Source: Gimesia sp.
Lineage (GTDB): Bacteria; Planctomycetota; Planctomycetia; Planctomycetales; Planctomycetaceae
Length of the DNA: 64,000 nucleotides
NCBI RefSeq assembly: GCF_040219335.1
Contig: NZ_JAVJSQ010000010.1
Location: forward strand, 1 to 64,000
Reading direction: 5' to 3'
Below are positions 15,679 through 35,178 of the stretch, piece by piece (the stretch's first letter is position 1; every line of letters begins with the position of its first letter). Position numbers and translations under genes: made by a program. Below the pieces are notes generated by a model that saw only the letters and a list, made by a program, of their open reading frames with translations, was not told where the DNA came from and made no database searches.

Positions 15679-15687
15679 ACCAATCAG

Positions 15688-15717
15688 CAGGAACGCTAGA
15701 AAAATCTAGCGTTCCTG
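15688..15717. terminator. Bidirectional hairpin terminator between convergent genes
   Basis: A perfect 13-bp stem (CAGGAACGCTAGA at 15688-15700 with its complement at 15705-15717) closes over a four-base AAAA loop. It overlaps the last codons of the minus-strand gene and serves both flanking genes. Confidence 0.8.
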
Positions 15718-16053
15718 TGTTTCTAAGTATTCAATAAATTCTTTCATGGTCGTTCTGGGATGCAAGCCAGATGATGTAACGTCAAAAGCTATATGAGTTA
15801 CATCATGACTGCCCTCAATTCTTGATTGTTCCATGAGTCGAAGTTGCCCGATCAAAGATTCTTGGTCAGGAATCGTATGCACTTTAACTTCGATTGATTC
15901 TAAGTTGTGATACTTTTGCTTATAGAACTTTTCAACCAAATCTTTGTCAGTCAATAAATTAAAGCATCGATCTCCATTGCACGTTGTTATGCAATATCCG
16001 GTCTTTCCTAATGGAAAGTAACAAGGGTAAGTAATCATAAATTCATCACTCAT
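15706..16053 (-). CDS. Hypothetical protein
   Basis: A 115-residue soluble protein with a Cys pair in the N-terminal third (YCITTCNGDRCFNLLTD) and no motif I recognise. AGGAGA lies 7 bases upstream of the ATG, which supports expression. It shares a terminator with the convergent small gene. Confidence 0.55.
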   Translation of the reverse strand: MSDEFMITYPCYFPLGKTGYCITTCNGDRCFNLLTDKDLVEKFYKQKYHNLESIEVKVHTIPDQESLIGQLRLMEQSRIEGSHDVTHIAFDVTSSGLHPRTTMKEFIEYLETQER

Positions 16054-16207
16054 TTTTCATTCTCCTAAAGATAGAAGCACCTAACCATATCAGAATGAAA
16101 AAGATTCTATGTGTATGCACGAGTACGGCAAGTACTATCTAGGCACTTGATTGTTTTTCTAGTGCCCCTTCTCTTACCAGATCGATAATCTCTCTTTTTG
16201 TGAATCA

Positions 16208-16930: not shown

Positions 16931-17296
16931 ACTAGATTGCTCCTGAATATGGATCTGGATTTTTATTCAGTATGCCAAGTTCAAAACAGAAAACAATCTA
17001 ATGAGTCATTTTCGTTACGGCCCTTCACTTACAAAATGGTAAGAGTAAGGCTGCTTTAATATTGATATGGCAAAGCTTCTTTCATACCAAACCACTATTT
17101 ACTCCAGACCGGGATGTTAATCCGGGACATAATTTTCAACTCATTGGAGTGGATTGTAGTATCACACGACTGTACTATATGTGCAGTAGCTTCGTCTCAG
17201 TCGAAGCCCAACTTACAAAGTTTAAAGGAGAATTTTAGCGGCCTTTTGAGGCCATATTTTGACAATTTGAAATGACGTTAAGTCAACATTCTGTTT

Positions 17297-17426
17297 CCAG
17301 ATAAATCGCCAACCTGAGCTTAATCGCTCTTGAACTAACGAGACAGAGATTGGCCGGCGTCCCCTTTATGGGGGCGTTCGGACGCATGATCTCTGTTCGT
17401 TAGTGCCCTTTGGCGAGGGTATCTGG
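17297..17426 (+). other. Large multi-stem inverted-repeat element (candidate structured RNA)
   Basis: In the 600-base gap between divergent genes lies a nested fold. The outer stem is CCAGATA (17297-17303) with TATCTGG (17420-17426), then TCGCCAA (17306-17312) with TTGGCGA (17410-17416), then CTAACGAGACAGAGAT (17335-17350) with ATCTCTGTTCGTTAG (17389-17403), one bulge. Inside is CGTCCCC/GGGGGCG closed by a short loop, next to a GCGT-TCGG-ACGC hairpin. It ends about 105 bases before the start of the next plus-strand gene. It could be a leader RNA, a regulator-binding palindrome or the end of a small mobile element. Confidence 0.6.
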
Positions 17427-17531
17427 AGCGGATGCATTGTGTGCTTCGTTCGCTCCCACCTTTTTGTCGCCACTGACACCCAGAAGTTGCTGAGCGTAAC
17501 TAACCGCACTGCAATTTAAAAAGGGCTAACG

Positions 17532-18458
17532 ATGGCGACAAATAATCCCACCTACCAAGAACTCGCACGCATCCGAGCAGCCAGCGAAAACAATCTCGCT
17601 TTTCAAACGATCCAGACTGGCGTTCTGACAAGTCTGAACGGAGTCATGGGCTCTATTCACTCCGAAATGGCAGAAGTTCGTCAACTCCATGCTGAGGGAT
17701 TGGCCGCCCAACAGGAACTCTTGCAACGCGAAGCCCTTCAAGATCGCATTGAAGAGTTTCTCTACCAAGCCGAGAAACTCGTCGAAAAGTGTTTCTGCCG
17801 GGACACGGACATCCCCTACTCTTCCCGATATTTTCTACTCCAAGGTCTGATTCACTCAATCCATAATGATGGGATCTCCACAGCGATCATCAAAGGTCGT
17901 GAAAACAAAAAAGCCTTTGATAATGTCGTTGCCAAGATCAATAAGATGCTCTCCAAGTTGAGCGAAATTGCAGAAGTGAAAGAGGCAATTGAATGGGCGG
18001 AGAAGGAGAATCGACGTGCTCTTGCTGAGAGAAAGCGTGCGAATAAGGAGCGTCAAAGACAACAGGAGTTGCTGAAAAAGTACAATGCCAAAGTTGTCGA
18101 ACTCAAGAAGGAACAGAAACCTCCCTTGAATTTCGGGATCTGGTATTCCAATCGGCTCAGGAATTTCAGGGAGATTCCAGTTCTTGGGTTCTTATTCGTC
18201 TTTCCTCCGACCAGCCTAATGCTACAGGTCATAGCTTGGGCGATGTATGGTTTTTTCTGGATTCCAATCGCGTATGCATTATCTGCTGCATACGACAAAA
18301 AACAGATCGAGAAATACAACAAAGCAATCGACGAGAAAATCGAAAGGCTAAATGAAACTGCCCGGAAGCATGGACTAGATCCAGATGGAATAATTCTCGA
18401 TTTTGATGATTCTGAACCGCCTCTTGGAATTGCGTATGATGGTGAGGTGCACTCATGA
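17532..18458 (+). CDS. Coiled-coil membrane protein, unknown function
   Basis: The 308-residue protein is mostly helical. Residues 1-75 and 130-200 look like coiled coils (NRRALAERKRANKERQRQQE); a hydrophobic hairpin at about 213-255 would cross the membrane twice; a short coil and an acidic tail (LDFDDSEPP) follow. The start has AGGG upstream. Its TGA overlaps the ATG of the next gene by four bases, so the two are translationally coupled. No known family is recognised. Confidence 0.65.
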   Translation: MATNNPTYQELARIRAASENNLAFQTIQTGVLTSLNGVMGSIHSEMAEVRQLHAEGLAAQQELLQREALQDRIEEFLYQAEKLVEKCFCRDTDIPYSSRYFLLQGLIHSIHNDGISTAIIKGRENKKAFDNVVAKINKMLSKLSEIAEVKEAIEWAEKENRRALAERKRANKERQRQQELLKKYNAKVVELKKEQKPPLNFGIWYSNRLRNFREIPVLGFLFVFPPTSLMLQVIAWAMYGFFWIPIAYALSAAYDKKQIEKYNKAIDEKIERLNETARKHGLDPDGIILDFDDSEPPLGIAYDGEVHS

Positions 18459-19000
18459 GCGGACAGCCTCGCACTTCTAAATTGATGATTCTCGGTCGCA
18501 TCGGAGCACTGGGAGCGTCTCTTGGGACGACGTTTTTCTACCTGCTTACTGCTTTAGGATTAAGCGTTGCTATTTCTCCAATCTGGACTGGAGCGGTTTT
18601 TGGCATCGGTGTATTCGTCTTCGTGATGTGGGCAATCATCCGTTTTATAGGATGGTTGCTCGCTGGTGATGATCCAGCCTACCAGCAATACATTGCTGAG
18701 GGCGGTGATCCATATTTCGATGGGCTGCCGCCTCCCTTCAATAATGATTCATGGACTCAACGTATTGGTGGCCTAAGAGAACCTGTCACAGATTTTGTCC
18801 CGCCTGACCATTGGCAGTATCAATGCCAGAGATGTGGTGCTCGCGTCGAACACGAAATCGATGTGTGCTGGAACTGCGGGAATGGAAATGACACCCAACA
18901 GTGTCACGGATGTGGCTTGTTGGTGAGAGAGCCTTCATTCGGAGCTTTTGAAACCACAGGTGTGATTTGTCCCCAGTGCAATTCTTTAATTAGAGCATAA
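18455..19000 (+). CDS. Membrane protein with C-terminal double zinc ribbon
   Basis: A 181-residue protein has two transmembrane helices (about 20-45 and 48-72) and a cytoplasmic C-terminus with four CxxC pairs: CQRC, CWNC, CHGC and CPQC, from residue 124 onward. This spacing indicates two rubredoxin-like zinc ribbons. It overlaps the upstream coiled-coil membrane gene (ATGA), which suggests a shared complex. Function unknown; the ribbons may bind protein or nucleic acid. Confidence 0.65.
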   Translation: MSGQPRTSKLMILGRIGALGASLGTTFFYLLTALGLSVAISPIWTGAVFGIGVFVFVMWAIIRFIGWLLAGDDPAYQQYIAEGGDPYFDGLPPPFNNDSWTQRIGGLREPVTDFVPPDHWQYQCQRCGARVEHEIDVCWNCGNGNDTQQCHGCGLLVREPSFGAFETTGVICPQCNSLIRA

Positions 19001-19021
19001 CCCCTTTCAAAGGAGACAATA

Positions 19022-20098
19022 ATGTTTCGATTTCACTTATCAGTTTTTGCGTTCTTGATGATGTTCTTCGCAGCCACTTCAATTCAAGCTGCGGAGAAAA
19101 CCATCGACGGCAAGATCAAATCTGTCGATGCGACTAAACGCACAATATCGGTGATCGACAAAGATAAAACACTGGATCTCGAACTCAGTAAAAACACAAA
19201 GATTACAGCGAAGGACAAACCATTAAATGTAAGTTCATTGCAGTCAGGACAGTCCATCAGACTGAAATATCATGATGGGTTGGGGATTGTCCTTGAAATC
19301 GATGTATTGTCACCAATCCCAAAGAAACCAGAACTGGTTTTGTTGAGCGAACTGGACACAAATGGAGAGGAAAGCAACCCTTGGGTATCCAGCGATGGCA
19401 TGACAATTTTTTATACGGTAAAAGAACTATCCCAACAAACAAGATGGATTTGGACTGCCAAAAGAAAAGATGCGGAGTCTCTGTTCGAGAATCCAAAGCG
19501 ACTGATTCCGGCGATGGACTTTACAGTTTCCGATGATGGACTTGAAATGATTCTGTTTCTGAATAGAGGGCTTTATCAGACAACCAGAGATACAGTCGAG
19601 GACAACTTCAAGCGTCCATCGAGAATCGCTTCTGCTGTTATCAATAATGGATTCTTGGCAGGGCCTTGTCTTTCCTCAGATGGCCTCACTTTGTACTGCG
19701 ACAGTATGCGAAAAGGGGTAGGACCGCAGATTCAGGTCATGTCACGAAAAACCAAATCTTCAAACTGGAATAAACCTGAGCCTCTGCAATTAACTCCCAT
19801 CGGCAAAATGAAATATCCATACATCTCACGCGATGGAAAGTACCTGTTCTGCACCGGCAAAGATATTTCTCAAGGATCAAATATCATCATACATTCTGGG
19901 AAAGATGATGATGGTGGGTTTCATAGTGCTAGTGTGTTGAACATTGATGGAATTACGCTGCGTGGGATATTTCCTCGATATGTCGAGGCAACAAAGGAAT
20001 TGTTTTTTGCTGGTGAGCCAGAAAATGGAAATGGTGAATTGAAGTTGATGGTGTTGAAGAATTTCGATCCTGAGAAAGTGATTCCCGGTTTGAAGTGA
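19022..20098 (+). CDS. Secreted PD40-type beta-propeller protein (copy 1)
   Basis: A signal peptide ends near residue 23 (ATSIQAAEK). Residues 25-95 form a small beta domain (IDGKIKSVDATKRTISVID), and the rest carries PD40/WD40-like propeller blades with repeated xSxDGxxxxF motifs (VSSDGMTIFY, SDDGLEMILF, SSDGLTLYCD, SRDGKYLFC). AAGGAG lies 6 bases before the ATG. It probably acts in the periplasm; the substrate is unknown. The next gene is a diverged tandem paralogue, and the propeller part also resembles the middle of the protein at 45816-48581. Confidence 0.75.
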   Translation: MFRFHLSVFAFLMMFFAATSIQAAEKTIDGKIKSVDATKRTISVIDKDKTLDLELSKNTKITAKDKPLNVSSLQSGQSIRLKYHDGLGIVLEIDVLSPIPKKPELVLLSELDTNGEESNPWVSSDGMTIFYTVKELSQQTRWIWTAKRKDAESLFENPKRLIPAMDFTVSDDGLEMILFLNRGLYQTTRDTVEDNFKRPSRIASAVINNGFLAGPCLSSDGLTLYCDSMRKGVGPQIQVMSRKTKSSNWNKPEPLQLTPIGKMKYPYISRDGKYLFCTGKDISQGSNIIIHSGKDDDGGFHSASVLNIDGITLRGIFPRYVEATKELFFAGEPENGNGELKLMVLKNFDPEKVIPGLK

Positions 20099-20156
20099 TG
20101 ACCACTGCTAGTGAATTCACTGATTCAAATATTACTCATAATTAAAGGTAAAAAGA

Positions 20157-21239
20157 ATGTACCGCATTATGACCATAACATGCTTTGCCATGATCTTGTT
20201 TCTGGCAACAAGTATTGCTCAAGCAGAAGTTGTTTCGATTGAAGCAACCGTTAAATCAGTTGATCCTCAAAACAACAAAATCACAGTCGAACGAAAAGGG
20301 AAAACCACAGAGTTTGATGTCAGTAAGAACTCAGACCTCTCTAAACTCAAAGCCGGTCAGAAAGTCACACTGAGTTACCATCTTGATCTGGAAACCGTGT
20401 TGAAAATCGAATCACCGGAAGTTAAATCGGATTCTAAATCTCCTGAACTCATCGTTCTCCAAGAACTCGATGCAGAAGGTTTTGAGGGTAACCCAGTTCT
20501 CACGAAAGATGGTCTCACGATATTCTGGAACATCAAAGGTCCATCAGATTCCTTGAAATGGGTCTGGACAGCGACTCGGAAAGATCAGAATTCTTTATTT
20601 GAGAACAAAAAGAAGTTGATTCCAGCAGCAGATTTTACAGTTACATCTGATGGTCTTGAAATCATCATGTTGCAAAACAATGGTTCTCTGGCCAGTGCTA
20701 CCAGAGATGATCTCGAAAGTAATTTCAGCAGACCGAAAACAATAACTGAGCTAAATAAGAAGTATGGTTTCATTGCAGCTCCGACTATTTCTCCTGACGC
20801 CCTGACTTTGTATTACGGACGCATAGTGAAAGGTAAAGGAATTCAGTTTCATTATTCCACTCGCTCGACTAAGAGCGGTAAATGGAGTTCCCCCAGACCA
20901 CTGCAGTTGCCTCCAAGTGGCTATAAAATGCGTTTCATGACTCTATCTTCTGACGATAAATATCTGTTTTGTAATGCCATGGATGCAGAAGAAGGGAAAC
21001 CAAATCTGCTGATTTATTCGAGGGGAACTCCACAGGATCGGTTTGAATATCTTGGAGTTGTGGACTCTGAGGAATTGAAGGTGAATGCGTCCAAGGGTGG
21101 TGCATTTGCCCGATACCTGCCGGACTCAAATGAGCTGTTCTATGCTGGCACGATTGATGATAGTGGCGACCGAAAATTGTTGTTGATCAAGAATTATCGC
21201 CGGAGACGATGGTCGAAAGAGTTGGGGAATAGTATTTGA
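20157..21239 (+). CDS. Secreted PD40-type beta-propeller protein (copy 2)
   Basis: This 360-residue paralogue of the preceding gene has the same layout: signal peptide ending near TSIAQAEVV, an N-terminal beta domain with VKSVDPQNNKITV, and propeller blades (LTKDGLTIFW, VTSDGLEIIM, ISPDALTLYY, LSSDDKYLFC). It lies 58 bases after its sister, so the pair is a tandem duplication and likely one operon. No catalytic motif is visible. Confidence 0.75.
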   Translation: MYRIMTITCFAMILFLATSIAQAEVVSIEATVKSVDPQNNKITVERKGKTTEFDVSKNSDLSKLKAGQKVTLSYHLDLETVLKIESPEVKSDSKSPELIVLQELDAEGFEGNPVLTKDGLTIFWNIKGPSDSLKWVWTATRKDQNSLFENKKKLIPAADFTVTSDGLEIIMLQNNGSLASATRDDLESNFSRPKTITELNKKYGFIAAPTISPDALTLYYGRIVKGKGIQFHYSTRSTKSGKWSSPRPLQLPPSGYKMRFMTLSSDDKYLFCNAMDAEEGKPNLLIYSRGTPQDRFEYLGVVDSEELKVNASKGGAFARYLPDSNELFYAGTIDDSGDRKLLLIKNYRRRRWSKELGNSI

Positions 21240-23684: not shown

Positions 23685-24098
23685 ATGGCAAGACAGTTCA
23701 CGATCAGCCAAGTGGCGAAATCCGCTAAACTTCCCACGACAACCGTGCGTTACTACGAGCGGGTCGGACTGGTCGAGCCCGACGACCGCAGTGCTGGCAA
23801 TTACCGGCTGTACAGCGAAGAGTCATTACGGAAACTGAAATTCATCCGGGCGGCTCAAGCCGTCGGATTCACACTCGATGACATCAAGGCTTTGCTTGAC
23901 AGGCCCGACGATCAGAATTCAGCCTGTAAGGACGTGCAGCGTCTGATTGAAAAGCGTCTTTCCGACATCAAACAGAAATTGAAGGATTTGCGACACGTTC
24001 AGCGTGTGCTGCAAACAAGTCTCAACCAATGTCGAGAGTTTCAATCAGTCGAGTGTTGTCACGTTCTCAAAACATTAGAAGCAGCAGCGAAGAAGTAG
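23685..24098 (+). CDS. merR: Mercuric resistance regulator MerR
   Basis: The 137-residue protein has the winged-helix TTVRYYERVGL and YRLYSEESLRKLKFIRAAQA, a dimerisation helix, and three metal-binding cysteine positions (SACKDV, LNQCREFQSVECC) with the spacing of classical Hg(II)-sensing MerR. It represses and then, with Hg(II), activates the divergent promoter. The gene looks intact although its target operon has lost merA. A hairpin follows. Confidence 0.9.
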   Translation: MARQFTISQVAKSAKLPTTTVRYYERVGLVEPDDRSAGNYRLYSEESLRKLKFIRAAQAVGFTLDDIKALLDRPDDQNSACKDVQRLIEKRLSDIKQKLKDLRHVQRVLQTSLNQCREFQSVECCHVLKTLEAAAKK

Positions 24099-24687: not shown

Positions 24688-25098
24688 TTATTTTCTTTGC
24701 TTGGAATCAAGAGCATCAAGAATCGAACATTCACTGATTGAACCTCGACCACTGCATTCGCTGGTCAATTTCTTCAATGCCCTCTTAATTCGTTTGAGTG
24801 TGCGAATCTTTTCGTCGATGTCTGTGATCTTTGCTTCGGTTCGGCTTTTTATGTCGGCACAACTTGTTGTTACATCAAGCCGCAGAGACATCAGTTCTTT
24901 AATTTCAGTGAGCGTGAAACCGAGTTCTTTGGCCCGCCTGATAAACTGCAAACGGGCAATTGTTTGGTCATCGAATTGGCGATAACCGGAAGACGACCGG
25001 TCAGGCTTAGGGATTAATCCTTCCCGTTCATAAAACCGCACAGTTTCGACGCCGACACCAGAACGTTCCGCAACCTGACCAATCGTGAGTGATTTCAT
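24688..25098 (-). CDS. MerR-family metal-responsive regulator (second copy)
   Basis: The 136-residue protein starts MKSLTIGQVAERSGVGVETV, with GGAAG upstream; an 11-codon extension lacks a site. It has VRFYEREGLIPKPDRSSSGY and Cys at TSCADIK and ECSGRGSISEC, the three-cysteine spacing of Hg(II)-type MerR. Unlike merR1 it is transcribed with its own targets from an over-spaced promoter, so it is probably autoregulated. Confidence 0.87.
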   Translation of the reverse strand: MKSLTIGQVAERSGVGVETVRFYEREGLIPKPDRSSSGYRQFDDQTIARLQFIRRAKELGFTLTEIKELMSLRLDVTTSCADIKSRTEAKITDIDEKIRTLKRIKRALKKLTSECSGRGSISECSILDALDSKQRK

Positions 25099-25122
25099 GT
25101 TGAATCTTCCTTTCATTGCCCC

Positions 25123-25154
25123 ATCATACACCTTGCACCATACTACAGGGTCAA
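25123..25154 (-). promoter_or_regulatory. MerR-type over-spaced promoter of the second merR operon
   Basis: On the minus strand TTGACC (25149-25154) and TATGAT (25123-25128) are 20 bases apart; the spacer begins CTGTAGTATGG, close to the CTNTAGTNNC pattern of PbrR/CadR/MerR-type operators. It lies 25 bases upstream of merR2. Confidence 0.72.
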
Positions 25155-25682: not shown

Positions 25683-26258
25683 TTATGCTTTCAGATAACG
25701 AAGAACAGTTCGCTTACTCGTTCCCAATGCTGTGGCAATCTCTTCAATCTTTAGGCCACGAGATCTGAGTTCCTGTGCTCGCTCCGGTTTTGCTTTATAC
25801 GTCCCTTTCTTTCTTCCAGTGTAGACTCCTTTCTTCTTAGCCACTTCGATGCCCGCCTGCTGTCGCTCCTGACGGTATTCCAGCTCGATTTCGGCAAGCC
25901 CGAGCATCACGGCAGCGATCATCCTTCCAACCGCCCCATTCAGTTCGATCATCTGGGTAATCACAACCACTTTGATTCCTCGTTCACACCAGTCAGCCAG
26001 CAAAGTCACACCATCTTTCAAGCGGCGTGACAGGCGGTCCAGCTTCCAACACACAACTGTTTTGATCTTGCCATTAAAGATATCTGCCTGTAACCGCTCG
26101 AACTCAGGACGCTTCAAGGTCTTTCCACTCTCGTGATCGATGTACCACTCGATCTGTTTCTCATCATAACCATTGGCAGCAATCCATTTCTTGATCTCCG
26201 CCTCTTGGCTGTCTGTCTTTTGTTTGCTGGTACTACAGCGACAATAGCAGGCGATCAT
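25683..26258 (-). CDS. Serine recombinase (resolvase/invertase family)
   Basis: The 191-residue protein carries the resolvase N-terminal catalytic domain (YCRCSTSKQKTDSQ, with the nucleophilic Ser in CST; CWKLDRLSRRLKDGVTLL; arginines of the active site present) and a short helix-turn-helix C-terminus (RSRGLKIEEIATALGTSKRT). It probably resolves or inverts DNA of the mobile element it belongs to. AAGGA precedes the start. It is the only recombinase in the window and is too short for a large serine integrase. Confidence 0.9.
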   Translation of the reverse strand: MIACYCRCSTSKQKTDSQEAEIKKWIAANGYDEKQIEWYIDHESGKTLKRPEFERLQADIFNGKIKTVVCWKLDRLSRRLKDGVTLLADWCERGIKVVVITQMIELNGAVGRMIAAVMLGLAEIELEYRQERQQAGIEVAKKKGVYTGRKKGTYKAKPERAQELRSRGLKIEEIATALGTSKRTVLRYLKA

Positions 26259-26556
26259 GAGAAATATCCTTGAGATAGATTAATGACAAATGGATTACAG
26301 CCATTTTGGCACTCAATGAATAAACGGGAAGTCCTACAAAATAAGGCGTTCCAGAGTTCTGAAATGAAACAACTCTAATTGTCATTCTGACAAGTTGAGT
26401 TTGGATGTCTTCATCTCAGCATCGCATCTGACGGCAGACGCCTTTTCCATAGTAGGTTCTCTTGGAAGAACGAGGGGCTTGAGTTTTATTATGACCCGGA
26501 ATTTAGGTCTGCGTTTTTTGTTCATAACATTCAGATCTCCAGCATATATTGAGAAG

Positions 26557-26588
26557 GTGTCCGGGAGTCATGGAGGACTCCCGGACAC
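26557..26588 (-). terminator. Strong hairpin, probable terminator
   Basis: A perfect 13-bp stem (GTGTCCGGGAGTC at 26557-26569 with its complement at 26576-26588) lies 10 bases past the stop of the minus-strand gene that follows. There is no clear T run. Confidence 0.65.
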
Positions 26589-26598
26589 AAGAAGTAGA

Positions 26599-26850
26599 TC
26601 ACTCAGGCTCAAAACTGAAATAGAACCGGGGGCTGTGCTGAAATTTAAGCGTGCCCCGAATTCCATCACATTTTCTTTTTGCCAGCACGAAGGGGGATAG
26701 AAAAGATTCGACAGAAAATTCCTGCTGCAGTTCACTGGTATTCCAGACCTGCCCGTGCTTCGCTTCGAGGTACTCTCTGCTCCCCTCAACAGCATTAATG
26801 CTTTGAGTCATCACCCGACGGATGGTTTCTGCTTCTGTGCGATCAGTCAT
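26599..26850 (-). CDS. Small conserved hypothetical protein
   Basis: An 83-residue soluble protein with the end pattern VWNTSELQQEFSVESFLSPF, CDGIRGTLKFQHSPRFYF. I recognise this pattern as a small family common in planctomycete genomes and mobile elements, but its function is unknown. AGGAG lies 7 bases before the ATG. Confidence 0.65.
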   Translation of the reverse strand: MTDRTEAETIRRVMTQSINAVEGSREYLEAKHGQVWNTSELQQEFSVESFLSPFVLAKRKCDGIRGTLKFQHSPRFYFSFEPE

Positions 26851-26888
26851 CTAAAACTCCTGAAAAAGTGAATAATGTTTGTTACAGA

Positions 26889-27332
26889 TCACTTGCGGGT
26901 GTCATTGGGTGAGACTTTGAGACTTATTTTTCGCCTCTTTTCCAGTCTTTCCTGATGGCGGAATCTCACTTCCTGTCTCCAGTCTGGATGACCTCCGTAT
27001 TGTTCGATTGGCACGAGATCGAGATACTTTATCGGGCAGGAGTAATAGTAGGGATGCTCAGCCTCCTGCATATCTTTATAACCCCAGTCCCCGGCATGAC
27101 AGCGAATCAAGTCGCACGTGATCCAGCGTTGAGTCCTTTCAACCTGCTTCCCATCCCTCTCAAAAGTTCGTTCCCATACCGCCCATAGCACGCCACTAAA
27201 CCTGCCGCCCCGGAAGCAATGAGCGAGACAATTAGATTTAACAAGAACACTATTGCTCTCACCCTCCCATGATCTTGTTCGCTGTTGAATGAGTTCTTTT
27301 CTTGAAACGCCTGTCGGATAGGTCCACCCCAT
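26889..27332 (-). CDS. DUF6927-type mobile-element protein
   Basis: The 147-residue protein starts MGWTYPTGVSRKELIQQRT and continues with LAHCFRGGRFSGVLWAVWE, RWITCDLIRC, DWGYKDMQEAEHPYYYSCP. This is a family seen often on plasmids and phages with no assigned function. AGGGGAGA precedes the start. The last codons (NDTRK) carry one exact copy of the dispersed TTGCGGGTGTC motif. Confidence 0.75.
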   Translation of the reverse strand: MGWTYPTGVSRKELIQQRTRSWEGESNSVLVKSNCLAHCFRGGRFSGVLWAVWERTFERDGKQVERTQRWITCDLIRCHAGDWGYKDMQEAEHPYYYSCPIKYLDLVPIEQYGGHPDWRQEVRFRHQERLEKRRKISLKVSPNDTRK

Positions 27333-27351
27333 AAAATGATCTCCCCTTAAA

Positions 27352-27393
27352 AGAAAAAAACTGATGCAAGAATCGCAGTGATTCTTGCATCAG
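27352..27393 (-). terminator. Rho-independent terminator
   Basis: A perfect 14-bp stem (27361-27374 with 27380-27393, loop GCAGT) is followed on the minus strand by a run of T. It ends transcription of the small acidic gene to its right; the DUF6927 gene begins 20 bases further on. Confidence 0.85.
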
Positions 27394-27426
27394 TCTTGTG
27401 GGTGTCTGATTTCTGGAACTTAGAGA

Positions 27427-27618
27427 TTAGAATTCGTCGTAGCCGAAGTAGCCGAAATATTCATCGGCTTGTTCAAAATCTTCGAGTTCCTGCTGTTCAA
27501 GAATCTCGTCCCAAGGTTCGTCATACGGATATTCTTCGTCGTACTTTTGGGCGAACTCATCAGCCGCTTGTTCATCCAGAATGTCGCCATAGTTGCCGTT
27601 CAAATGATCGTCCATCAT
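27427..27618 (-). CDS. Small very acidic protein
   Basis: A 63-residue protein is dominated by Asp, Glu and Tyr (EYPYDEPWDEILEQQELEDF). The start is set at the ATG preceded by GGGGAGA; an upstream TTG frame is not favoured. Such DNA-mimic-like composition is seen in anti-restriction proteins, but no homology supports that. It follows the next gene after a short gap and is probably co-transcribed. Confidence 0.5.
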   Translation of the reverse strand: MMDDHLNGNYGDILDEQAADEFAQKYDEEYPYDEPWDEILEQQELEDFEQADEYFGYFGYDEF

Positions 27619-27674
27619 GTTTATCTCCCCAAAGAATATTGATGTTGAGTACGCTTCGATTGAGAGTGTCGATT

Positions 27675-27962
27675 TCAATATTCTTCTGGCAGTAGAATTG
27701 TTGTGGCACTGCGATCAGCTTCGGTAATTACCCAGATCTTTGTGCGGTCTTTCAGGTGATAGACACTAAAAATGCGGTCGCCAAATTTAAGGGCTTGTTC
27801 ATTGGTCTGGCGATCCTCATCACAAAGCTCAGACCAGTCTCCATGTTGATGTCGCTCGAAATATTCAAGCGGTGACTGATTGTTTCTTTGCAGTGCATCA
27901 AGAGCACCATGCGTGGCGACGGTTCGACCGAGCTGAAAGAGCGGTTTACTTTTCTGGATCAT
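27675..27962 (-). CDS. Conserved plasmid/ICE-type hypothetical protein
   Basis: The 95-residue protein matches a widespread plasmid and integrative-element family: LFQLGRTVATHGALDAL, QSPLEYFERHQHGDWSELC, DRIFSVYHLKDRTKIWVITE, ADRSATTILLPEEY. Its function is unknown. AAGGG lies about 6 bases upstream of the ATG. A degenerate copy of the dispersed motif lies about 50 bases upstream. Confidence 0.75.
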   Translation of the reverse strand: MIQKSKPLFQLGRTVATHGALDALQRNNQSPLEYFERHQHGDWSELCDEDRQTNEQALKFGDRIFSVYHLKDRTKIWVITEADRSATTILLPEEY

Positions 27963-28117
27963 TCTGTTCCCTTCAAAATATGATTGTTGGTTTCTTGGAC
28001 AATCACCTGATGGGTGTCGGAATTTCCTCGAAAAAGAATTTTCTTGTCTTACTTAATCTTATTTGGGAGAATCTGGACAACAGTTAATTCATTATTTGAG
28101 AACAGAAAGAGCACACC

Positions 28118-28774
28118 ATGGACCAGCAGTCCCCTATCGATATCAGAAATTCGATTTATGCAGACTTTGGAGATGGCAGATTAAAGATTGTGTGGAACGG
28201 AGATGTTCATGGTCACATTCATCAGGGAGATCATGGCCTACAGGTCGTATTCGCTTCGGACTGTCGCCAATACATTGAGCTGTCAGGGAAACAGTATCAC
28301 CTGAGACAATTTCATTTTCATCACCCCAGTGAGCACTGGGTGGATGGGAATCAGCATACGATGGAATTACACGTAGTGCATCAAAACTCTCATGATGGAT
28401 CACTGGCTGTGATTGGAATCTTTATTGAGCCCGGTAAAACAAAAGATCCTTTGCACTCACTATTCAACCAGATCGCCTCTCTCACCTCTACTGGATCAAG
28501 TAATGGGCCTGATTATCATGTCTCTTTTAATCCACAAGACTTCTTACCCAGTGATTGGGAAAAGCATTACAGGTATGAAGGGTCGCTGACAACGCCACCT
28601 TATAGTGAAAATGTCAGTTGGGTGGTCATCAAAAACCCATTCGAAATGAACAAAACAAAGCTGGCAAAGATGCTGGAACTATTCAAAGCAGAGGCCCGTT
28701 TTCCGCACCCACTGAATCGGAGATATGTTTTATCCACATTCAAAGATGACGAAAAACCCAAGGGAAAGAAGTAA
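28118..28774 (+). CDS. Alpha-class carbonic anhydrase without signal peptide
   Basis: This zinc enzyme interconverts CO2 and bicarbonate. QSPIDI is at the N-terminus; the three zinc histidines are in QFHFHHPSEHW and MELHVVH; YEGSLTTPPYSENVSW holds the gatekeeper Thr. Alpha-class enzymes in bacteria are normally exported, yet this 218-residue protein begins at MDQQSPIDI with no signal peptide and so should stay in the cytoplasm. It is the only plus-strand gene in a block of minus-strand mobile-element genes. Confidence 0.9.
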   Translation: MDQQSPIDIRNSIYADFGDGRLKIVWNGDVHGHIHQGDHGLQVVFASDCRQYIELSGKQYHLRQFHFHHPSEHWVDGNQHTMELHVVHQNSHDGSLAVIGIFIEPGKTKDPLHSLFNQIASLTSTGSSNGPDYHVSFNPQDFLPSDWEKHYRYEGSLTTPPYSENVSWVVIKNPFEMNKTKLAKMLELFKAEARFPHPLNRRYVLSTFKDDEKPKGKK

Positions 28775-28801
28775 CTGTTGCGAATGATCATTCTCAGGGT
28801 A

Positions 28802-29110
28802 TCAGATGGGGATAACCGCATACTGAACCGTTTCGCCATTAGCCATCTTTTGGCTGGCCAAAAAGGCATTGGCTTCTCTGCTTGGTGTCATCCTGCACAA
28901 ACTGGAAATCTTACTGGCGAAGCAGATCGTGACTGGATGATTGTTGAGTTCATTCCCTGACATACCTGTTTTTCGCATTGCCTTGAGGTGTCGATGGAAA
29001 GCCCCAGCAACAGCGATCATATTGACCGCATCTTGAACTGCGATGGCATCGCTGGCAGCTTTCATGAGGCACTCATTATTGCCGTCTGATGTGGCTATAT
29101 GTGGTTTCAT
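28802..29110 (-). CDS. Conserved mobile-element hypothetical protein
   Basis: A 102-residue protein with DAIAVQDAVNMIAVAGAFHR and NNHPVTICFASKISSLCRM resembles a family common on plasmids and integrative elements, function unknown. AAGGAG lies 6 bases before this ATG. An in-frame GTG at 29161 would add 17 residues and would overlap the upstream gene's stop region; it might be a coupled leader instead. Confidence 0.65.
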   Translation of the reverse strand: MKPHIATSDGNNECLMKAASDAIAVQDAVNMIAVAGAFHRHLKAMRKTGMSGNELNNHPVTICFASKISSLCRMTPSREANAFLASQKMANGETVQYAVIPI

Positions 29111-29157
29111 TATATGCTCCTTGCTGGATGTCTGTGGTAACAGGAAGATGGCAGGTG

Positions 29158-30051
29158 TCACTCAGCATCTTCCAGCATTTTCAGATATCGTTGACGAGCT
29201 CTAAAAAAACTCGCACGACTTTTTCCCGTCGTATTGCAAAAGAAAGTCTGTTGATCAGACGGGGATTCAGGATGCTTCTCCATCGCTTGTTTGATGACTT
29301 TTGCATCTGCGGATTTATTATCGAGTCGTTTTGTGGCGACCTGTTTTCTTCCAAGCGACATGAGCTGACTTTTGATTAATGGTCGCCAATCTATGCCCTC
29401 CTCCCGAGCATATTTCAGCTTTCGCAGACTTGGCCCAAGAAGCCTCAACGACAACTGACGGTCTTCTGCATTTGCGTCGATGTAGTCGATGACCGATTCA
29501 CATTCAGCTGGTGTCACACCATGAAAGCCCTGCGAAGAGAGATTTCTCATCATCTCAATTACTTCGCCGTTTGTGGCACTTAATTCGAACTGATCGCATC
29601 GAGACAAGACAGCTTTGAAAGCGTCGTTTTTGGGGATTACGTTGGCAGCAAAGACGCATCGAGACGTAAATTCAAAACTGGATGGAAGGTCGCTGAGCTG
29701 TGAGCTCCCATATGTCACAATGCGAGGATTTCCCCACAATGCAGACCTCAATAAGCCCAAATGCGGCATTGAAGAATACATGCTGTCTACATCATCAAAA
29801 AACAGAACGGCATCATCACGATGTTGAAACAGTGTTCCGTACAGAGCGAGGGGCGTTATGTGGGAATTAATGATGATGGGATCAACGCCATGTTCATCAA
29901 GCACTTGGAGAATTGTTCGACTTTTTCCGAGTCCACCTTGACTGCCAAATACGAACAACGCATGACTCATTTTCTTTGCCAGTAAACGAACATGGTGAGC
30001 CAAGAGCTCCTGTTTTTTCTCAAGAGATGTCATTGTAGTAGGTGTATCCAT
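29158..30051 (-). CDS. P-loop ATPase of a mobile element
   Basis: The 297-residue protein has Walker A FGSQGGLGKS, Walker B AVLFFDDVDSM and a sensor-like SRCVFAANVIP, so it is an AAA-type ATPase. A basic C-terminal part (RKQVATKRLDNKSADAKVIK) may bind DNA. Family members accompany plasmid or phage cargo. AAAGGAA precedes the start. A long hairpin flanked by two copies of the dispersed motif stands in its leader. Confidence 0.75.
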   Translation of the reverse strand: MDTPTTMTSLEKKQELLAHHVRLLAKKMSHALFVFGSQGGLGKSRTILQVLDEHGVDPIIINSHITPLALYGTLFQHRDDAVLFFDDVDSMYSSMPHLGLLRSALWGNPRIVTYGSSQLSDLPSSFEFTSRCVFAANVIPKNDAFKAVLSRCDQFELSATNGEVIEMMRNLSSQGFHGVTPAECESVIDYIDANAEDRQLSLRLLGPSLRKLKYAREEGIDWRPLIKSQLMSLGRKQVATKRLDNKSADAKVIKQAMEKHPESPSDQQTFFCNTTGKSRASFFRARQRYLKMLEDAE

Positions 30052-30090
30052 TTTCTATTCCTTTCACTTTAACTACGGGTGTCATAAAGA

Positions 30091-30181
30091 AGTGATCGCC
30101 GCCCTGATCCAGCACTGACAGTGGTCTTCAATTCAATCGAAAAACCACTGAGATCTGTAATGATCAGTGACGGCGATCACT
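30091..30181 (-). other. Structured leader or intergenic hairpin upstream of the ATPase gene
   Basis: AGTGATCGCCG (30091-30101) pairs perfectly with CGGCGATCACT (30171-30181). Inside, CTGATC (30104-30109) faces GATCAG (30162-30167) and CAGTGGT (30119-30125) faces ACCACTG (30144-30150). The element fills the gap between ardC and the ATPase gene and is bounded on each side by a GGGTGTC motif in the same orientation. Confidence 0.6.
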
Positions 30182-30194
30182 CCAATTGCGGGTG

Positions 30195-31085
30195 TCAGCC
30201 AGCGACTTCGACAGGCTTTTTGCTGAATGACATGATGTAGTCAGCAGCCTTAGAGGCTTGTGAAGAAGCTTGAAAGATGAATGACGAATCCTGCTTCATT
30301 TTTTGAAGCCAGCTATTTAGATACGCATGATGGTTTTCGTCATTGGTGGGAATTCCAAGTTCAGAACACAGATAGCACGCTCCGATCTCCGCGATTAATT
30401 CTCCCAGAGCGTAGCCATTACCTTCACGATCCCAATTGAGACGGTCGGAATTCTCAGTCCAATGAACGTACTCATGAAACAGCACTTGATAATAGCTTGT
30501 TCCTGAAAACTGATCACGATTTGGAACTTGGATATAGTCTTGTGCGAGATCGTAAAAAGCTTGGTTGCCTCCATGGCGAATGTCAGCTTCGGTAGCTTCG
30601 ATCAGGGCGTCTGCTTCTTCATAAGCAACGCTCTCTGAATTGCGGGTGTCATTACCGTGACCGACACGTAGATAGTCCAAATGATCGCCTTCAATCTGGT
30701 CGATGCAGAAGACGGTATAGGTCTTGAGTAGGAAATAGGTCTCTTCTTCGTCATGATCTTTCCTCTTGGTGACGGCTTTGCAGAACACAATCTTAGTTCC
30801 CCAATGGCCGCTGGGTACATGCGATGGTCGCCGCATGACTTTGCCACCGAGGTCCTGCCATTGTTTAAACGTCCCCCAGTGGCGAGACTGGAAGCCATGT
30901 CTCTCACTGGCAAGCCCTAAAAGCAAAGGGTTAACGCCGGTATATAAATCACCTGACACAACGTTCTTCGGCATCCCAGTTCGATGAAAAATCCAAGGAC
31001 GCCTCCACGGCGGGAGTGAATCACTCTCCAGAGCGGTAATGATTTGATTTGTAATTTCTTCGCGGATCTTTTGATTGCGTGACAC
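30195..31085 (-). CDS. ardC: Antirestriction protein ArdC
   Basis: ArdC protects incoming conjugative DNA. Residues 1-125 are the ssDNA-binding ArdC-N domain (LPPWRRPWIFHRTGMPKNVV, GVNPLLL). Residues 150-290 are the zinc metallopeptidase-like domain with HEYVHWTENSDRL (HExxH) and EIGACYLCSELGI. The start is GTG, chosen for AAGGAG 7 bases upstream. At 296 residues it is full length. It is a hallmark of leading regions of conjugative elements, though no transfer genes are in the window. Confidence 0.92.
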   Translation of the reverse strand: MSRNQKIREEITNQIITALESDSLPPWRRPWIFHRTGMPKNVVSGDLYTGVNPLLLGLASERHGFQSRHWGTFKQWQDLGGKVMRRPSHVPSGHWGTKIVFCKAVTKRKDHDEEETYFLLKTYTVFCIDQIEGDHLDYLRVGHGNDTRNSESVAYEEADALIEATEADIRHGGNQAFYDLAQDYIQVPNRDQFSGTSYYQVLFHEYVHWTENSDRLNWDREGNGYALGELIAEIGACYLCSELGIPTNDENHHAYLNSWLQKMKQDSSFIFQASSQASKAADYIMSFSKKPVEVAG

Positions 31086-31134
31086 TGGCCGTCTCCTTAG
31101 TGAGGTTGATTAGACGGCATACTTTGCGGGTGTC

Positions 31135-31536
31135 GCTGAGAATTGTGGGGCGTTCTCTGATTATCTCGTGAGATATGAGATGGGGAAAATGAGACTGGTT
31201 TAAGCCCAAAGTGTACGCAGCTAAAAAGCCTTGTATAACAGTCATTTATTGCGATTTGCTTGAGGGCTGTGGTAAGAGAGTCTCAAATTTCAATGCGATC
31301 GACAAATCAGAATACCTGTAGGTAGAAAAAAATCTATTCTTGTGCATTTGATATTGTGACAACAAGTATTGGCATTTGGTACACTAGCCATCTTGAGGTC
31401 AGGTTTCGCCTAAATGAATTAGACGGCATGGATGCTAGTAGGCACATATTAGAATTTCGTCTTCTATAAAAGTCATTAAGCCGAAAAGTTAAACGATCAA
31501 GAACACGTTTTAAAAGATTGTAGATAGAGAGTTGTG
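31135..31536. other. Gap between ardC and the Roco gene
   Basis: About 400 AT-rich bases separate divergent genes. The promoters of both are expected here. No small gene, hairpin or repeat beyond the dispersed motif at its left edge is convincing. Confidence 0.45.
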
Positions 31537-34500
31537 ATGGAAAACTGGGTACTACCAACGATTCAACGGGCTAAAGAAGAGGGTTGGACTTTTCTCGATC
31601 TTGGTAATTCTGGAATTACAGAACTTCCTTTGGAACTATCTGAGGTGGAGTCTTTAAAAGGACTTAACCTCGGTGAATATTTTTGGCATGAGCAAAAGAA
31701 TTCATGGATTGGGACTCGTTATAATGGTTCTACTAATAACCTTTCTGAAGTACCAATTGAGATAAGTAAATTACAGAATTTGGACACTCTCATTCTGACT
31801 GCGAACATACAACTCACAAATGACGGATTGATGCATCTGGAGGATCTAAAAAACTTGAAGCGACTAGATCTACAGAGGTGCGATCAAATTACGGACGAGG
31901 GATTGAAGCACCTGCAAGATCTGAAATATTTAGAGTGGCTTGATCTAAGTGGTTGCAATAAACTCACGGACGACGGATTGAAATATCTGCAGAATCTGAA
32001 GAACCTAGAGTATCTCATTTTGAGAGGTTGCAATCAAATCACATATAACGGATTGAGGAATCAGCAGAATCTGAAAAACTTGAAGCGACTCGATTTCATG
32101 AGATACGATCAATCCATCAATGATGGATTGAAGTTTATTCAAGATCTAAAATACTTAGAGTGGCTTGATCTCCGGAGTTGCTTTGATATTACAGACGAGG
32201 GACTGAAGCACCTGCAAGATCTGAAAAATTTAGAGCGGCTTGATCTAAGTGGTTGCAATAAACTCACGGACGACGGATTGAAATATCTGCAGAATTTGAA
32301 AAACTTAGAGTGTCTTGATCTAAGTGGTTGCTTTCATGTCACGGACGGAGGACTGAAGTACCTGCAGAATTTGAAATATTTAGAGCGACTCAATTTGAGG
32401 GGGGGCAATCGACTTACGGACTTCGGATTGAAATATCTGCAGAATCTGAAAAACTTGAAGCGTCTCGAACTGAGAGATTGCTATCAACTCACGGATCGCG
32501 GATTGCAGTATCTGCAGGATCTGAAAAGCCTAGAGTGGCTTGATCATAGTGGTTGCTATGAACTCACAGATGATGGACTGAAGTACCTGCAGAGCCTGAA
32601 AAACTTAGAGTTGCTAGATCTAAGTGAATGCTCTGGAGTTGCAGCTGACGGGTTGAAGTATTTGCGGAATCTGAAAAACTTAAAGTGTCTTGATCTGCGG
32701 GATTGCTATCAACTCACGAATGACGGTCTGAAGTATCTGCAAGAGCTGAAAAATTTAGAGTTCCTCGATTTGAGTGGATGTAATCAGCTCACAAATGACG
32801 GGCTAAAGTATCTGCTAGATCTGAAAAACTTAAAGAGTCTTTATTTAGTTGGGACTTCGATTTCGATTCCATCGGAAGTATTGGGGTCTAAGAATCCTCA
32901 ACAGATCTTTGAATGGTTAAATAACGAGGATAAACAACCTCTTCAAGCCTTCAAGTTACTATTAGTTGGTATGGGGAGAGTTGGCAAGACTCATCTCAGA
33001 AAACGTTTGACGAAAGACCCGGAACGCACCAACCACAACGAACCAGAGACTCATGAAATTGTAAGCATTCCACATGAATGGCCAACAAAAGGTGATTCCA
33101 ATTTCGAAATGCTACTTTGTGATTTCGGGGGACAGGGGTTAATGCATCACACGCATCGGTTTTACCTTGGAGCAGAGCATTGTTTTTATCTGCTTGTTAT
33201 TCGTGCCGACTGGCCCCCAGAAAAAAACAGGCTTGATTACTGGCTTCGCACGATTGCATTGCACAGCGATGCAGGTACGAAAGGCAAGTCGCCTGTACTG
33301 ATTCTGATCACCCAAACCGACCGAGTGGATTTAGCCAAACAGGACGTCAAATTACATAAAAGCACTGGATACAACGATTGGGATCCAGAGGCAATTCTAA
33401 AAAATTATGACCGATTGCTAGAAGATCTCAAACGAGTGTCTGCCCCTGAGTGCAAGCACTACGGGGCAAACGTAGTAGGTACTATTGGTGGGCTAGGATA
33501 CGACAGTGAACTTTCTCTTGACGATCAGCAATTCAAGAATCAACTTCGTGAAAGAAACTACGACGCTATACAGCAACTCAAGAAAATGATCAGCCAGAAC
33601 ATCACAGAGATTCCGGGAACATCTGATGGATATCCGCCTAATTTCTTTAACTTAAAAAAATGGATTACGGAAGAGTTCAAAAGAGGTGTTCCCTACTTTG
33701 ACTACAAAAAAAACAATGCCTTTCGAATGCTGTGTGAAGCAGAATCAATTCCTGAAAATGATGGAAAAAGGAATTCTGTAGGAGTATTGATTGATAGTAG
33801 AACTCTCTATCTACAGATTCTGAGAAATCTTGGACTAATTTACTTTGTAGGGGACTTGCCCTATACCCAGCAAACCTTTTTCACGGAAGCAAAGCAATGG
33901 GTTTTTAACCCGAAATGGCTGAACGAACCTGTCTATCACCGTCTGTTATGGGGAACAGAAGAAATACACCAGACAGGTTGGCTTACACTTGATCAATTCA
34001 AGTCATTGTTAAGTAGCCCCAGAACAGAAGGCTCCCCTACACCAGACCAGAAAAAACAATACGAAGAACATGAACGAAATGCTATCTGCCAATTACTCGC
34101 TACAATGCGAGTAATTCATTATAAGCAAGATGAGGATGGATTCCTTATACCCGATCTACTGAAATCAACTGATCATCCAGAACGAGTCGTTTCAGGTCTC
34201 GATAATATCGATGCACCTTTTACAATCTCTTATGAGTATCTTCCTGAACGCATTTTCTTTACATTTCTCGCTCGCCAATATCCTCACATTCCAGTTGAGG
34301 ATAGAAAAGATAATTGTTTCAGAAATACGATACGTTTTTGGTATGAGCATCCACATGATGTAAACAAGAAGATAGAAGTGGCTGCTGTTTACGAACCATA
34401 CGCGGATCAAAGTTATCAGCCTCGGATTGTGTTTTATATTGGTGATTCCGATCCCGATGTAATCAGGGACTGTCGGAGGGATTTAGAAAAAGACCTCAGA

Positions 34501-35178
34501 GCCTGTTACGACAAAGAGCACTGGAATGAGCGTGATAAATTAATTCAAAACGTAAACGGCTTTGAAAGCATGGTGCCTTCTGCAGCACCGAGAGTAGCTC
34601 CACCTGCGAAACGTAGTTCAGATCAATCTAATGAAAACGAAATTTGTTTTGGTGATTTCCGGTACGATACAGAGACAGGAAGAATCTATAAAAATAATGT
34701 TTTCAAACTACAAATAAAACGAAGTACGCTTTCAGGGATTTTGCTTCGGGCCTGTCTCGAAGAAATGAAAAAGAAAGATTACGATTCATTAAAGGATGGT
34801 CTTTTCAAAAATAGTATAAACCCAGCGAAGCTAGAAAAATATGGATATTTTTATTCCAAGTGCAACGACTGTATAAAAAATAGAGACACAAGATGCGGGA
34901 AAGATTTTAAAGCGAAAGTGAAAAAGACCAACCCAGTCACTGGCAAAGAGCATGAAGTGGTAAAGATCTACGATTCTTGTGAAGAGTATTACTCGGCACA
35001 TCCTAATAAACTGATCAGCGTCAAAAGTTCTCGACTCAATTCTCTTAATAAAAAGCTTGAGAAGCTAAAGAAAGACGGAGTTGAGTTTACTATCGAGCAG
35101 CTTCAAAATGAAAATCTCTTGGAAATCGTCCTGAAACCAACGAATGGTCTCAGCGAAAAACAAAATATTGCTGAATAA
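31537..35178 (+). CDS. LRR-Roc-COR protein (bacterial Roco GTPase)
   Basis: The 1213-residue protein starts with a short LRR pair, then 14 near-perfect 25-residue leucine-rich repeats of the cysteine-containing type (LKNLxxLDLSGCxxLTDDGL) at residues 79-428. A Roc GTPase follows: G1 GMGRVGKTHL (about 478), G3 CDFGGQGLMHH, G4 ITQTDRVD. A COR dimerisation domain (about 700-960) starts near PPNFFNLKKW. The C-terminal 200 residues contain FGDFRYDTETGRIYKNN, weakly like a winged helix, and a Cys cluster (CNDCIKNRDTRCG). Roco proteins dimerise and signal on nucleotide turnover; here a sensor or effector role in defence is inferred only from context. ATG chosen over the adjacent GTG. Confidence 0.9.
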   Translation: MENWVLPTIQRAKEEGWTFLDLGNSGITELPLELSEVESLKGLNLGEYFWHEQKNSWIGTRYNGSTNNLSEVPIEISKLQNLDTLILTANIQLTNDGLMHLEDLKNLKRLDLQRCDQITDEGLKHLQDLKYLEWLDLSGCNKLTDDGLKYLQNLKNLEYLILRGCNQITYNGLRNQQNLKNLKRLDFMRYDQSINDGLKFIQDLKYLEWLDLRSCFDITDEGLKHLQDLKNLERLDLSGCNKLTDDGLKYLQNLKNLECLDLSGCFHVTDGGLKYLQNLKYLERLNLRGGNRLTDFGLKYLQNLKNLKRLELRDCYQLTDRGLQYLQDLKSLEWLDHSGCYELTDDGLKYLQSLKNLELLDLSECSGVAADGLKYLRNLKNLKCLDLRDCYQLTNDGLKYLQELKNLEFLDLSGCNQLTNDGLKYLLDLKNLKSLYLVGTSISIPSEVLGSKNPQQIFEWLNNEDKQPLQAFKLLLVGMGRVGKTHLRKRLTKDPERTNHNEPETHEIVSIPHEWPTKGDSNFEMLLCDFGGQGLMHHTHRFYLGAEHCFYLLVIRADWPPEKNRLDYWLRTIALHSDAGTKGKSPVLILITQTDRVDLAKQDVKLHKSTGYNDWDPEAILKNYDRLLEDLKRVSAPECKHYGANVVGTIGGLGYDSELSLDDQQFKNQLRERNYDAIQQLKKMISQNITEIPGTSDGYPPNFFNLKKWITEEFKRGVPYFDYKKNNAFRMLCEAESIPENDGKRNSVGVLIDSRTLYLQILRNLGLIYFVGDLPYTQQTFFTEAKQWVFNPKWLNEPVYHRLLWGTEEIHQTGWLTLDQFKSLLSSPRTEGSPTPDQKKQYEEHERNAICQLLATMRVIHYKQDEDGFLIPDLLKSTDHPERVVSGLDNIDAPFTISYEYLPERIFFTFLARQYPHIPVEDRKDNCFRNTIRFWYEHPHDVNKKIEVAAVYEPYADQSYQPRIVFYIGDSDPDVIRDCRRDLEKDLRACYDKEHWNERDKLIQNVNGFESMVPSAAPRVAPPAKRSSDQSNENEICFGDFRYDTETGRIYKNNVFKLQIKRSTLSGILLRACLEEMKKKDYDSLKDGLFKNSINPAKLEKYGYFYSKCNDCIKNRDTRCGKDFKAKVKKTNPVTGKEHEVVKIYDSCEEYYSAHPNKLISVKSSRLNSLNKKLEKLKKDGVEFTIEQLQNENLLEIVLKPTNGLSEKQNIAE

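Follow-up and report, generated by a model that had tools for sequence, protein, structure and literature searches.

A short polar word, the 11-mer GACACCCGCAA, recurs along a block of mobile genes in the 64,000-nt stretch of Gimesia sp. DNA analysed here (contig NZ_JAVJSQ010000010.1, positions 1 to 64,000; hereafter “the window”), and may well be the recognition box of an element-wide control module whose sense strand is read by a factor encoded by the element itself, a reading which we hold tentatively. The gene block lies on the minus strand and encodes an ArdC-like protein, an ATPase-like protein, several small proteins and a serine recombinase; a carbonic anhydrase gene interrupts it on the opposite strand. 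The evidence comes from the position of the box before genes, its polarity and variants, its enrichment within coding sequence, its avoidance on the antisense strand and the self-complementarity of the leaders which it opens.

The motif in the window and in the genome

GACACCCGCAA is the gene-strand (minus) form of the 11-mer. A scan located exact copies at 26893, 30186, 30640 and 31124, all on a single strand, as a preliminary description of this DNA had stated, and the excess over chance claimed there was borne out: 100 dinucleotide shuffles of the window contained a mean of 0.00 copies. The whole genome (7,934,201 bases) contained 7 exact copies, 4 of these within 4.3 kb of the window and the other 3 inside long open frames, so that the motif was far from evenly distributed along the chromosome, the density comparison that had been proposed. 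The conserved unit was the hexamer core GACACC, the tail differing between elements.

Allowing up to two mismatches, 25 matches to the 11-mer were found in the window vs. 14.1 expected (standard deviation, sd, 3.8), and none of the 100 shuffles reached 25. Three of the four close variants reported earlier were recovered at this threshold (27396, 1 mismatch; 29149 and 30073, 2 mismatches); the fourth, at 28008, had more than two mismatches, yet carried a GACACCC core. The looser matches at 38224 and 7480 lay outside the gene block and were compatible with chance, given the number expected at this threshold. Core copies absent from the preliminary description were located at 27660 (GACACT) and 26561 and, within genes, with ends at 29515, 28992 and 28889.

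Related elements and their words

ArdC relatives were present in 21 of 59 related genomes. The element set comprised 21 elements, 16 mapped and 5 from a named genome collection (L075, L076, L077, L086 and L087); all contained ArdC by construction of the set, and, apart from L075, L077 and L086, for which no phylum was given, they belonged to planctomycetes or to members of the window's class. Two gene orders were seen in the 16 mapped elements: ArdC, ATPaseA, small genes and usually a serine recombinase; or ArdC, p205, a RuvB-like gene, an AlpA-like helix-turn-helix (HTH) gene, a tyrosine integrase and small genes.

Each of the 21 elements had one main gene-strand word, the same layout being combined with different boxes. 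GACACCC(GCAA) was the word of the window and of L028 to L031, ACACCCGCAA of L032, GGACACCGGCAA of L034, L036, L038 and L039, GACACC with GCCGG-like tails of L033, GACACCT of L035 and L037, AGGCACCCCCTAGT of L042, CGGACC of L040, L041 (also TGGACC) and L086, ACACCCGCT of L087, and CGGACAC of L075 and L077. The densest case was L076, with 46 forward and 4 reverse copies of GGACACC in a 20.9-kb locus, about half of them inside open reading frames (ORFs; 9867-20611). The core was thus retained in related elements, and the loss in relatives that would have spoken against the motif was not observed. Copies of the word changed together within an element, and orthologous genes elsewhere bore other words; different words occurred even within one genome (L029 and L036 in G012; L031, L039 and L040 in G011; L030 and L042 in G005). 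Since the words are element-specific to this degree, recognition is probably encoded by the element, as far as can be judged from sequence.

The earlier suggestion of binding sites for an element-encoded protein stands for a regulator, with which the concentration of the motif in the element, its recurrence in relatives, the single variant per element and the differences within one genome agree. It found no support for a relaxase or partition protein: no such family was matched in Pfam by the 10 window ORFs scanned, a ParB-like family occurred in 1 of 21 elements, and the copies, with a median gap of 347 nt, did not form the tandem clusters of an iteron or partition array.

Position before start codons and anatomy of the leaders

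In the 21 elements, 125 of 310 core copies were located 44-58 nt before a start codon preceded by a Shine-Dalgarno (SD) sequence, vs. 11.8 expected from the qualifying positions, and the box-to-start distance peaked at 50-53 nt. L076 was the weakest element in this respect (7 of 45 copies, 2.1 expected). Boxes often overlapped the stop codon of the preceding gene; the first gene, ArdC, had its box at the same distance.

Leader anatomy was analysed in 96 leaders from 16 elements, chosen for a box-to-start distance of 44-60 nt, a filter which fixes leader length. Anchored on the box, these showed the core and its element-specific tail, then YGT (+17 to +19) and a stretch poor in G and rich in A and C; the leaders further contain the SD and often a gene-specific hairpin. 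G accounted for 8.8% of positions -33 to -14 vs. 21.7% in 134 control genes. The folding z-score was -1.02 in leaders vs. -0.20 in controls, and the 5' arm was complementary to the 3' half of the leader to which it belonged: mean duplex energy was -8.55, vs. -6.91 when halves were exchanged among the leaders of an element (0 of 5000 permutations). This self-complementarity was also present in a non-redundant set of 47 leaders (1 of 5000 permutations), in the window group (26 leaders) and in the second architecture (28 leaders; 0 of 2000 in both), and was absent from control leaders (n = 266; 744 of 2000). The box itself was unpaired (z -0.9). Pairing of the SD was seen in 86 leaders out of 96 and in 88 controls out of 135. 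In the leader helices, G-U was counted 26 times and A-C 12 times, against 0.43 expected (p = 0.0015), an excess expected for a structured single-stranded molecule of the sense strand. TANNNT was depleted in leaders (8 of 96 vs. 17.0 in shuffles, sd 3.4), and no -10 hexamer at fixed spacing, as in a sigma-70-type promoter, was found, YGT being the only conserved second block.

Core copies inside coding sequence

The own core of each element occurred 115 times in ORFs, vs. approximately 39.1 expected from synonymous-codon shuffles. The excess was seen in 21 of 21 elements and in all three frames, reached p < 0.05 in 15 of the 21, and was accompanied by 2 reverse copies. A comparison of 17 elements gave 91 forward copies of the own core (30.0 expected) and 1 reverse copy (12.9 expected); for the words of the other elements, counts in these ORFs were 30 forward (40.4 expected) and 25 reverse (34.0 expected). 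Host ORFs (n = 227, 284,232 nt) were flat for GACACC (62 vs. 60.5 forward, 54 vs. 62.5 reverse). The spacing of copies was more even than under random placement of the non-leader copies (dispersion sum 22.94 vs. 28.95, sd 1.35), some of which are leaders missed by the filter. Inside ArdC, the copy, considered as a possible special site, was located in a variable linker in several elements, where the local amino acids varied, and it was missing in L036.

The preliminary description had noted copies before starts and across stop codons, and two copies within genes. Beyond this, many copies open composite leaders, and the in-gene copies are part of a sense-strand enrichment with antisense avoidance.

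Candidate reader protein

Across the 21 motif loci, p81 was present in 16, p95 in 18, ATPaseA in 12, and RuvB-like and AlpA-type HTH proteins in 8 each. p81 was found in none of the 16 planctomycete ArdC loci called motif-less and in none of 23 proteobacterial ArdC loci (part of those scanned below); p95 was present in 6 of the same 16. p81 co-occurred best with the motif and is, on this distribution, the best candidate for the reader. Its predicted model (mean pLDDT 78) contained helices and a four-stranded sheet; that of p95 had a pLDDT of 91.7. Neither model had a match at E ≤ 0.001 in a fold search against the PDB, the best for p95 being a weak one to a RelE-type toxin (E 0.05).

ATPaseA was rejected as reader, being present in only 12 of 21 elements and 46% identical in L028, which retains the box. 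The recombinase was rejected because the histories of recombinase type and box are mismatched: the window and L029 have the recombinase type of L034, whose box is different, and the window box occurs together with other recombinases in L028, L030 and L031.

Loci beyond the element set

In a motif scan of 80 loci kept from 179 relatives, no proteobacterial ArdC locus scored above 10. Among ArdC loci of viral contigs, a score above 20 was reached by 3 of 80; the 7-mer was unrelated in all three, and in each it had only 3 copies at the -50 position. Of the further ArdC loci from planctomycetes in which no box was clear, 31 were re-examined with 6- and 7-mers; in L085, GGACCG occurred 9 times vs. 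2.1. A gene-strand 7-mer scan of five plasmid loci that encode a relative of p95, taken from 181 records, revealed no box at starts, the four loci beside L068 not having been examined for 7-mer position. L068 itself (pSINAC03 of Singulisphaera acidiphila) contained, at 524-865, ten copies of CGGCACTTTGRG, mostly 21-22 bp apart, an iteron-like array unlike the dispersed box. At L065 (1-4200), a Ser/Gly-rich repeat protein imitated a strand-biased word in k-mer scans.

Organization of the window element

The genes, leaders and cores of the window element are summarized in Table 1. For the conserved noncoding stretch downstream of ArdC, 50 base pairs were predicted, none of which had changes on both sides, and no Rfam family was matched. 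The ATPase gene had no match in Pfam or NCBIfam. Over the whole window, no Rfam family was found at gathering level and no tRNA was found; two sub-threshold Rfam matches fell in the block (E 0.006 and 0.078), the former to Chlorobi-1 RNA at 26531-26600 (+), in the inverted repeat downstream of p81.

Table 1. Genes, leaders and core copies of the window element (distance, box to start codon; MFE, minimum free energy; aa, amino acids).
Feature	Position (strand)	Box	Distance (nt)	Remarks
ArdC leader	31086..31134 (-)	GACACCCGCAA, 31124-31134	49	GTG start at 31085; hairpin CCGTC...GACGG covers SD; MFE -11.6, z -2.3
ArdC-like gene	30195..31085 (-)			ArdcN domain aa 5-126, MPTase-PolyVal zincin aa 156-276 (Pfam)
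In-gene 11-mer	30640..30650 (-)			variable linker joining the two ArdC domains
Box across ArdC stop	30186..30196 (-)			TGA 30195-30197; opens conserved noncoding stretch
Noncoding stretch	30084..30185 (-)			about 100 nt, highly structured, bracketed by two boxes; conserved in L028-L031
ATPase leader	30052..30083 (-)	GACACCCGTAG	32	no hairpin; exception to 50-nt rule
AAA-type ATPase gene	29158..30051 (-)			Walker motifs by eye
In-gene core GACACC	29510..29515 (-)			within ATPase gene
p102 leader	29111..29159 (-)	GACACCTGCCA	49	box across ATPase stop; ATG start
p102 gene	28802..29110 (-)			102 aa; in-gene cores 28987-28992, 28884-28889
Carbonic anhydrase gene	28118..28774 (+)			eukaryotic-type; inside block, opposite strand
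p95 leader	27963..28018 (-)	GACACCCATCA	56	hairpin GGTGATTGT...ACAATCAT; MFE -13.2, z -2.7
p95 gene	27675..27962 (-)			plasmid-associated small protein family
p71-gene leader	27619..27670 (-)	GACACTCTCAA	52	
Small acidic protein gene	27427..27618 (-)			63 aa, p71 family
p144-gene leader	27333..27406 (-)	GACACCCACAA	74	long hairpin and T-run after box
p144-family gene	26889..27332 (-)			147 aa
p81 leader	26851..26903 (-)	GACACCCGCAA, 26893-26903	53	
p81 gene	26599..26850 (-)			83 aa
Core GACACC	26556..26561 (-)			end of inverted repeat downstream of p81
Serine recombinase gene	25683..26258 (-)			presumed element end

Adjoining the element, a 1214-aa protein with leucine-rich repeats and a Roc GTPase domain was encoded at 31534-35178 (+), and a related leucine-rich-repeat protein lies beside the L031 element. 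Near the recombinase end, two ORFs for MerR-like regulators (23685-24098, +; 24688-25131, -) and heavy-metal-type domains were recognized by reading the translations only.

Discussion

In our reading, many genes of the element have their own leader of about 50 nt, composed of unpaired box, YGT, G-poor stretch, often a hairpin, SD and start codon, and the bare cores on the sense strand of ORFs would be further sites of the same module. A sequence-specific factor, encoded by the element and most likely a protein, would read the sense-strand core in nascent RNA, in mRNA or in the exposed non-template strand; the whole gene set would thereby be gated, hairpin and SD serving as its output in many of the leaders. 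A reader of the sense strand, most simply of RNA, is favoured by the constant spacing from the start codon, the gene-specific hairpins with an unpaired box, the tolerance of G-U pairs and the sense-strand enrichment. We infer the existence and identity of the factor, its RNA substrate and the direction of control. Related elements would have drifted to other boxes along with their own factors, so that a cell could contain two elements without cross-talk between them. The genes of the element resemble establishment (entry-phase) genes of conjugative plasmids and, by analogy based on ArdC and on the pLS20-family plasmids as described in PMC8708921, may act at entry into a new host. A more specific version, possible though on the doubtful side, is that the polar word, tiled through leaders and coding sequence and kept off the antisense strand, forms a private sense-strand code: an element-encoded RNA-binding factor would pick out the element's own transcripts among those of its host and of competing elements and gate translation via the leader hairpins, word and reader diverging together as in immunity groups.

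Several observations weigh against a sense-strand reader, or against p81 in that role. A reader of double-stranded DNA, like that of stoperators, better accounts for the avoidance of the reverse word. Spacing departs from the usual value in the ATPase leaders (31-33 nt) and in the p144 leader (72-74 nt). In the GGCAA group (25 leaders of 4 elements), the hairpin signal fell short of significance (445 of 2000); hairpins are therefore frequent but not universal. Nor did the G-U excess reach significance once redundant leaders were removed (15:8, p = 0.12). Cores in ORFs lacked the YGT box (1% vs. 50% in leaders) and the G-poor stretch, and their self-pairing was slight (91 of 3000), so that the copies in leaders and those in ORFs may have separate roles. 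p81 was not found in L033, L035, L037, L076 and L086 (L037 and L086 end at contig ends), whereas it was present in L100, which covers the contig of L044 (one of the 16 loci called motif-less) further and in which GACACC occurred 11:3; L028 holds the window-type motif though its p81 has diverged to 69%. Many of the elements are related, and the counts given here are not independent trials.

The DNA-level reader could take the form of polar, stoperator-like roadblocks, at which an element-encoded repressor on the double-stranded core would halt RNA polymerase in one direction and silence the integrated element. The single orientation with transcription, the many sites per element, the element-specific consensus, the even spacing of intergenic and in-gene sites taken together and the antisense avoidance all suit such a system, which also fits the description of cluster A phages in PMC6550527; we nevertheless consider it unlikely, as it needs neither gene-specific hairpins with unpaired boxes nor a fixed start-codon distance, and no DNA-binding gene is common to the elements (AlpA-type HTH in 8 of 21). 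A promoter for each gene, with the box as a -35-like element, YGT in the -10 and an element-encoded activator or specificity factor, would account for the distance of about 50 nt, for two boxes at fixed spacing and for the avoidance of antisense copies, which would drive antisense transcription. It is improbable in view of the lack of a second conserved block at promoter spacing, the depletion of TANNNT, the copy just 32 nt from its start, the leader holding a terminator-like hairpin, and the self-pairing that spans the would-be start site; an ordinary host promoter was rejected, there being no -10 in the leaders. The core might also mark the transferred single DNA strand, tiling it so that a single-strand binder, ArdC for instance, could attach or priming could take place during transfer. 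The strand-specific tiling and the presence of ArdC in every element (by construction) agree with this, but many copies are tied to start codons, proteobacterial ArdC loci show no such motif and the idea does not require the reverse motif to be avoided, which makes such marks quite improbable.

Three further mechanisms seem very remote. An antisense RNA of each element, pairing with the boxes, would let box and reader change together easily; allowing G-U pairs and one mismatch, no second box-complementary sequence was found on either strand of L030, L031, L032, L039 and L042 or on the gene strand of L034, and 1 or 2 scattered matches were found in the window, L028, L029, L036 and L038, the consensuses of L033, L035 and L040 being short or GC-rich and uninformative. 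Equally hard to credit is a cassette boundary or recombination site through which genes are shuffled between copies as in integrons. The box is near many gene boundaries, and the carbonic anhydrase gene lies between two boxes in the window, L029 and L030 and is unmatched in L028 and L031; against this, the enrichment in ORFs concerned all three frames and recombinase type does not track the box. In integron attC sites, moreover, a conserved box has a complementary partner at the other end of the palindrome, whereas here the box was unpaired and had few or no complementary partners. Just as little can be said for a strand bias as in type III restriction, with asymmetric sites held in one orientation to escape cutting: words such as ACACC in the core presumably resemble type III methylation sites, and antisense copies are avoided, but for escape it is enough that one orientation be avoided; neither a threefold excess of the other nor a position 50 nt before starts is required. 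Overall, the promoter, antisense-RNA, recombination-site and relaxase readings fit worse than a module read on the sense strand.

Among known systems, the stoperators of cluster A mycobacteriophages are described as asymmetric sites, 20-30 per genome and mostly in one orientation with transcription (PMC6550527), whose consensus is specific to the subcluster and read by the phage's own repressor (PMC6550527; stoperators also in PMC9283540). Asymmetry, a single orientation relative to transcription and an element-specific consensus are found here too, but in small planctomycete integrative elements, with composite hairpin leaders about 50 nt before starts and bare cores enriched in ORFs. The SAS and ESAS of cluster K mycobacteriophages, as characterized in PMC3203893, are 13-bp asymmetric repeats in 11-19 copies, nearly all in one orientation and linked to translation starts; about half have inverted repeats, and their function is given as unknown. 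There, the SAS is placed at the translation initiation site and the ESAS are conserved repeats upstream of it (PMC3203893), whereas the present box peaks 50-53 nt before the start, its inverted repeats are gene-specific and on the other side (they follow the box), and its core also recurs in ORFs. Stoperators and SAS/ESAS thus share polarity, multiplicity and group-specific words with the present motif, as far as the cited descriptions go, and differ in position, hairpins and in-ORF tiling.

The establishment regulons of pLS20-family plasmids contain ArdC-headed entry genes under shared upstream regulatory sequences according to PMC8708921, and in the present elements ardC and other putative entry genes likewise share such sequences. 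By the same description, EGeRS1 is structured, located just upstream of the ribosome-binding site, 420-750 bp long and present once per operon, and EGeRS2 consists of promoters flanked by Reg operators (PMC8708921); here, a module of about 50 nt stands before many single genes and no Reg was seen, no search having been aimed at EGeRS or Reg sequences. Frpo single-strand promoters of plasmid leading regions are reported as structured sequences upstream of entry genes and were sought by their -35, -10 and UP elements (PMC11541004); the structure upstream of entry genes is alike, but no such elements were recognizable in our leaders. In searches of a full-text library, partly loose and unspecific, no publication describing a motif of this kind in planctomycetes came to light.

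Control sites that are dispersed and polar and have element-specific words are known from a few clusters of mycobacteriophages; their putative counterparts are now found in integrative elements of another phylum. Words tied to starts, and present also in coding sequence against the synonymous expectation, suggest a general way for mobile elements to control all their genes at once while being insulated from relatives in the same cell, and, given the wealth of naturally occurring variants, it can be tested directly which protein reads the word.

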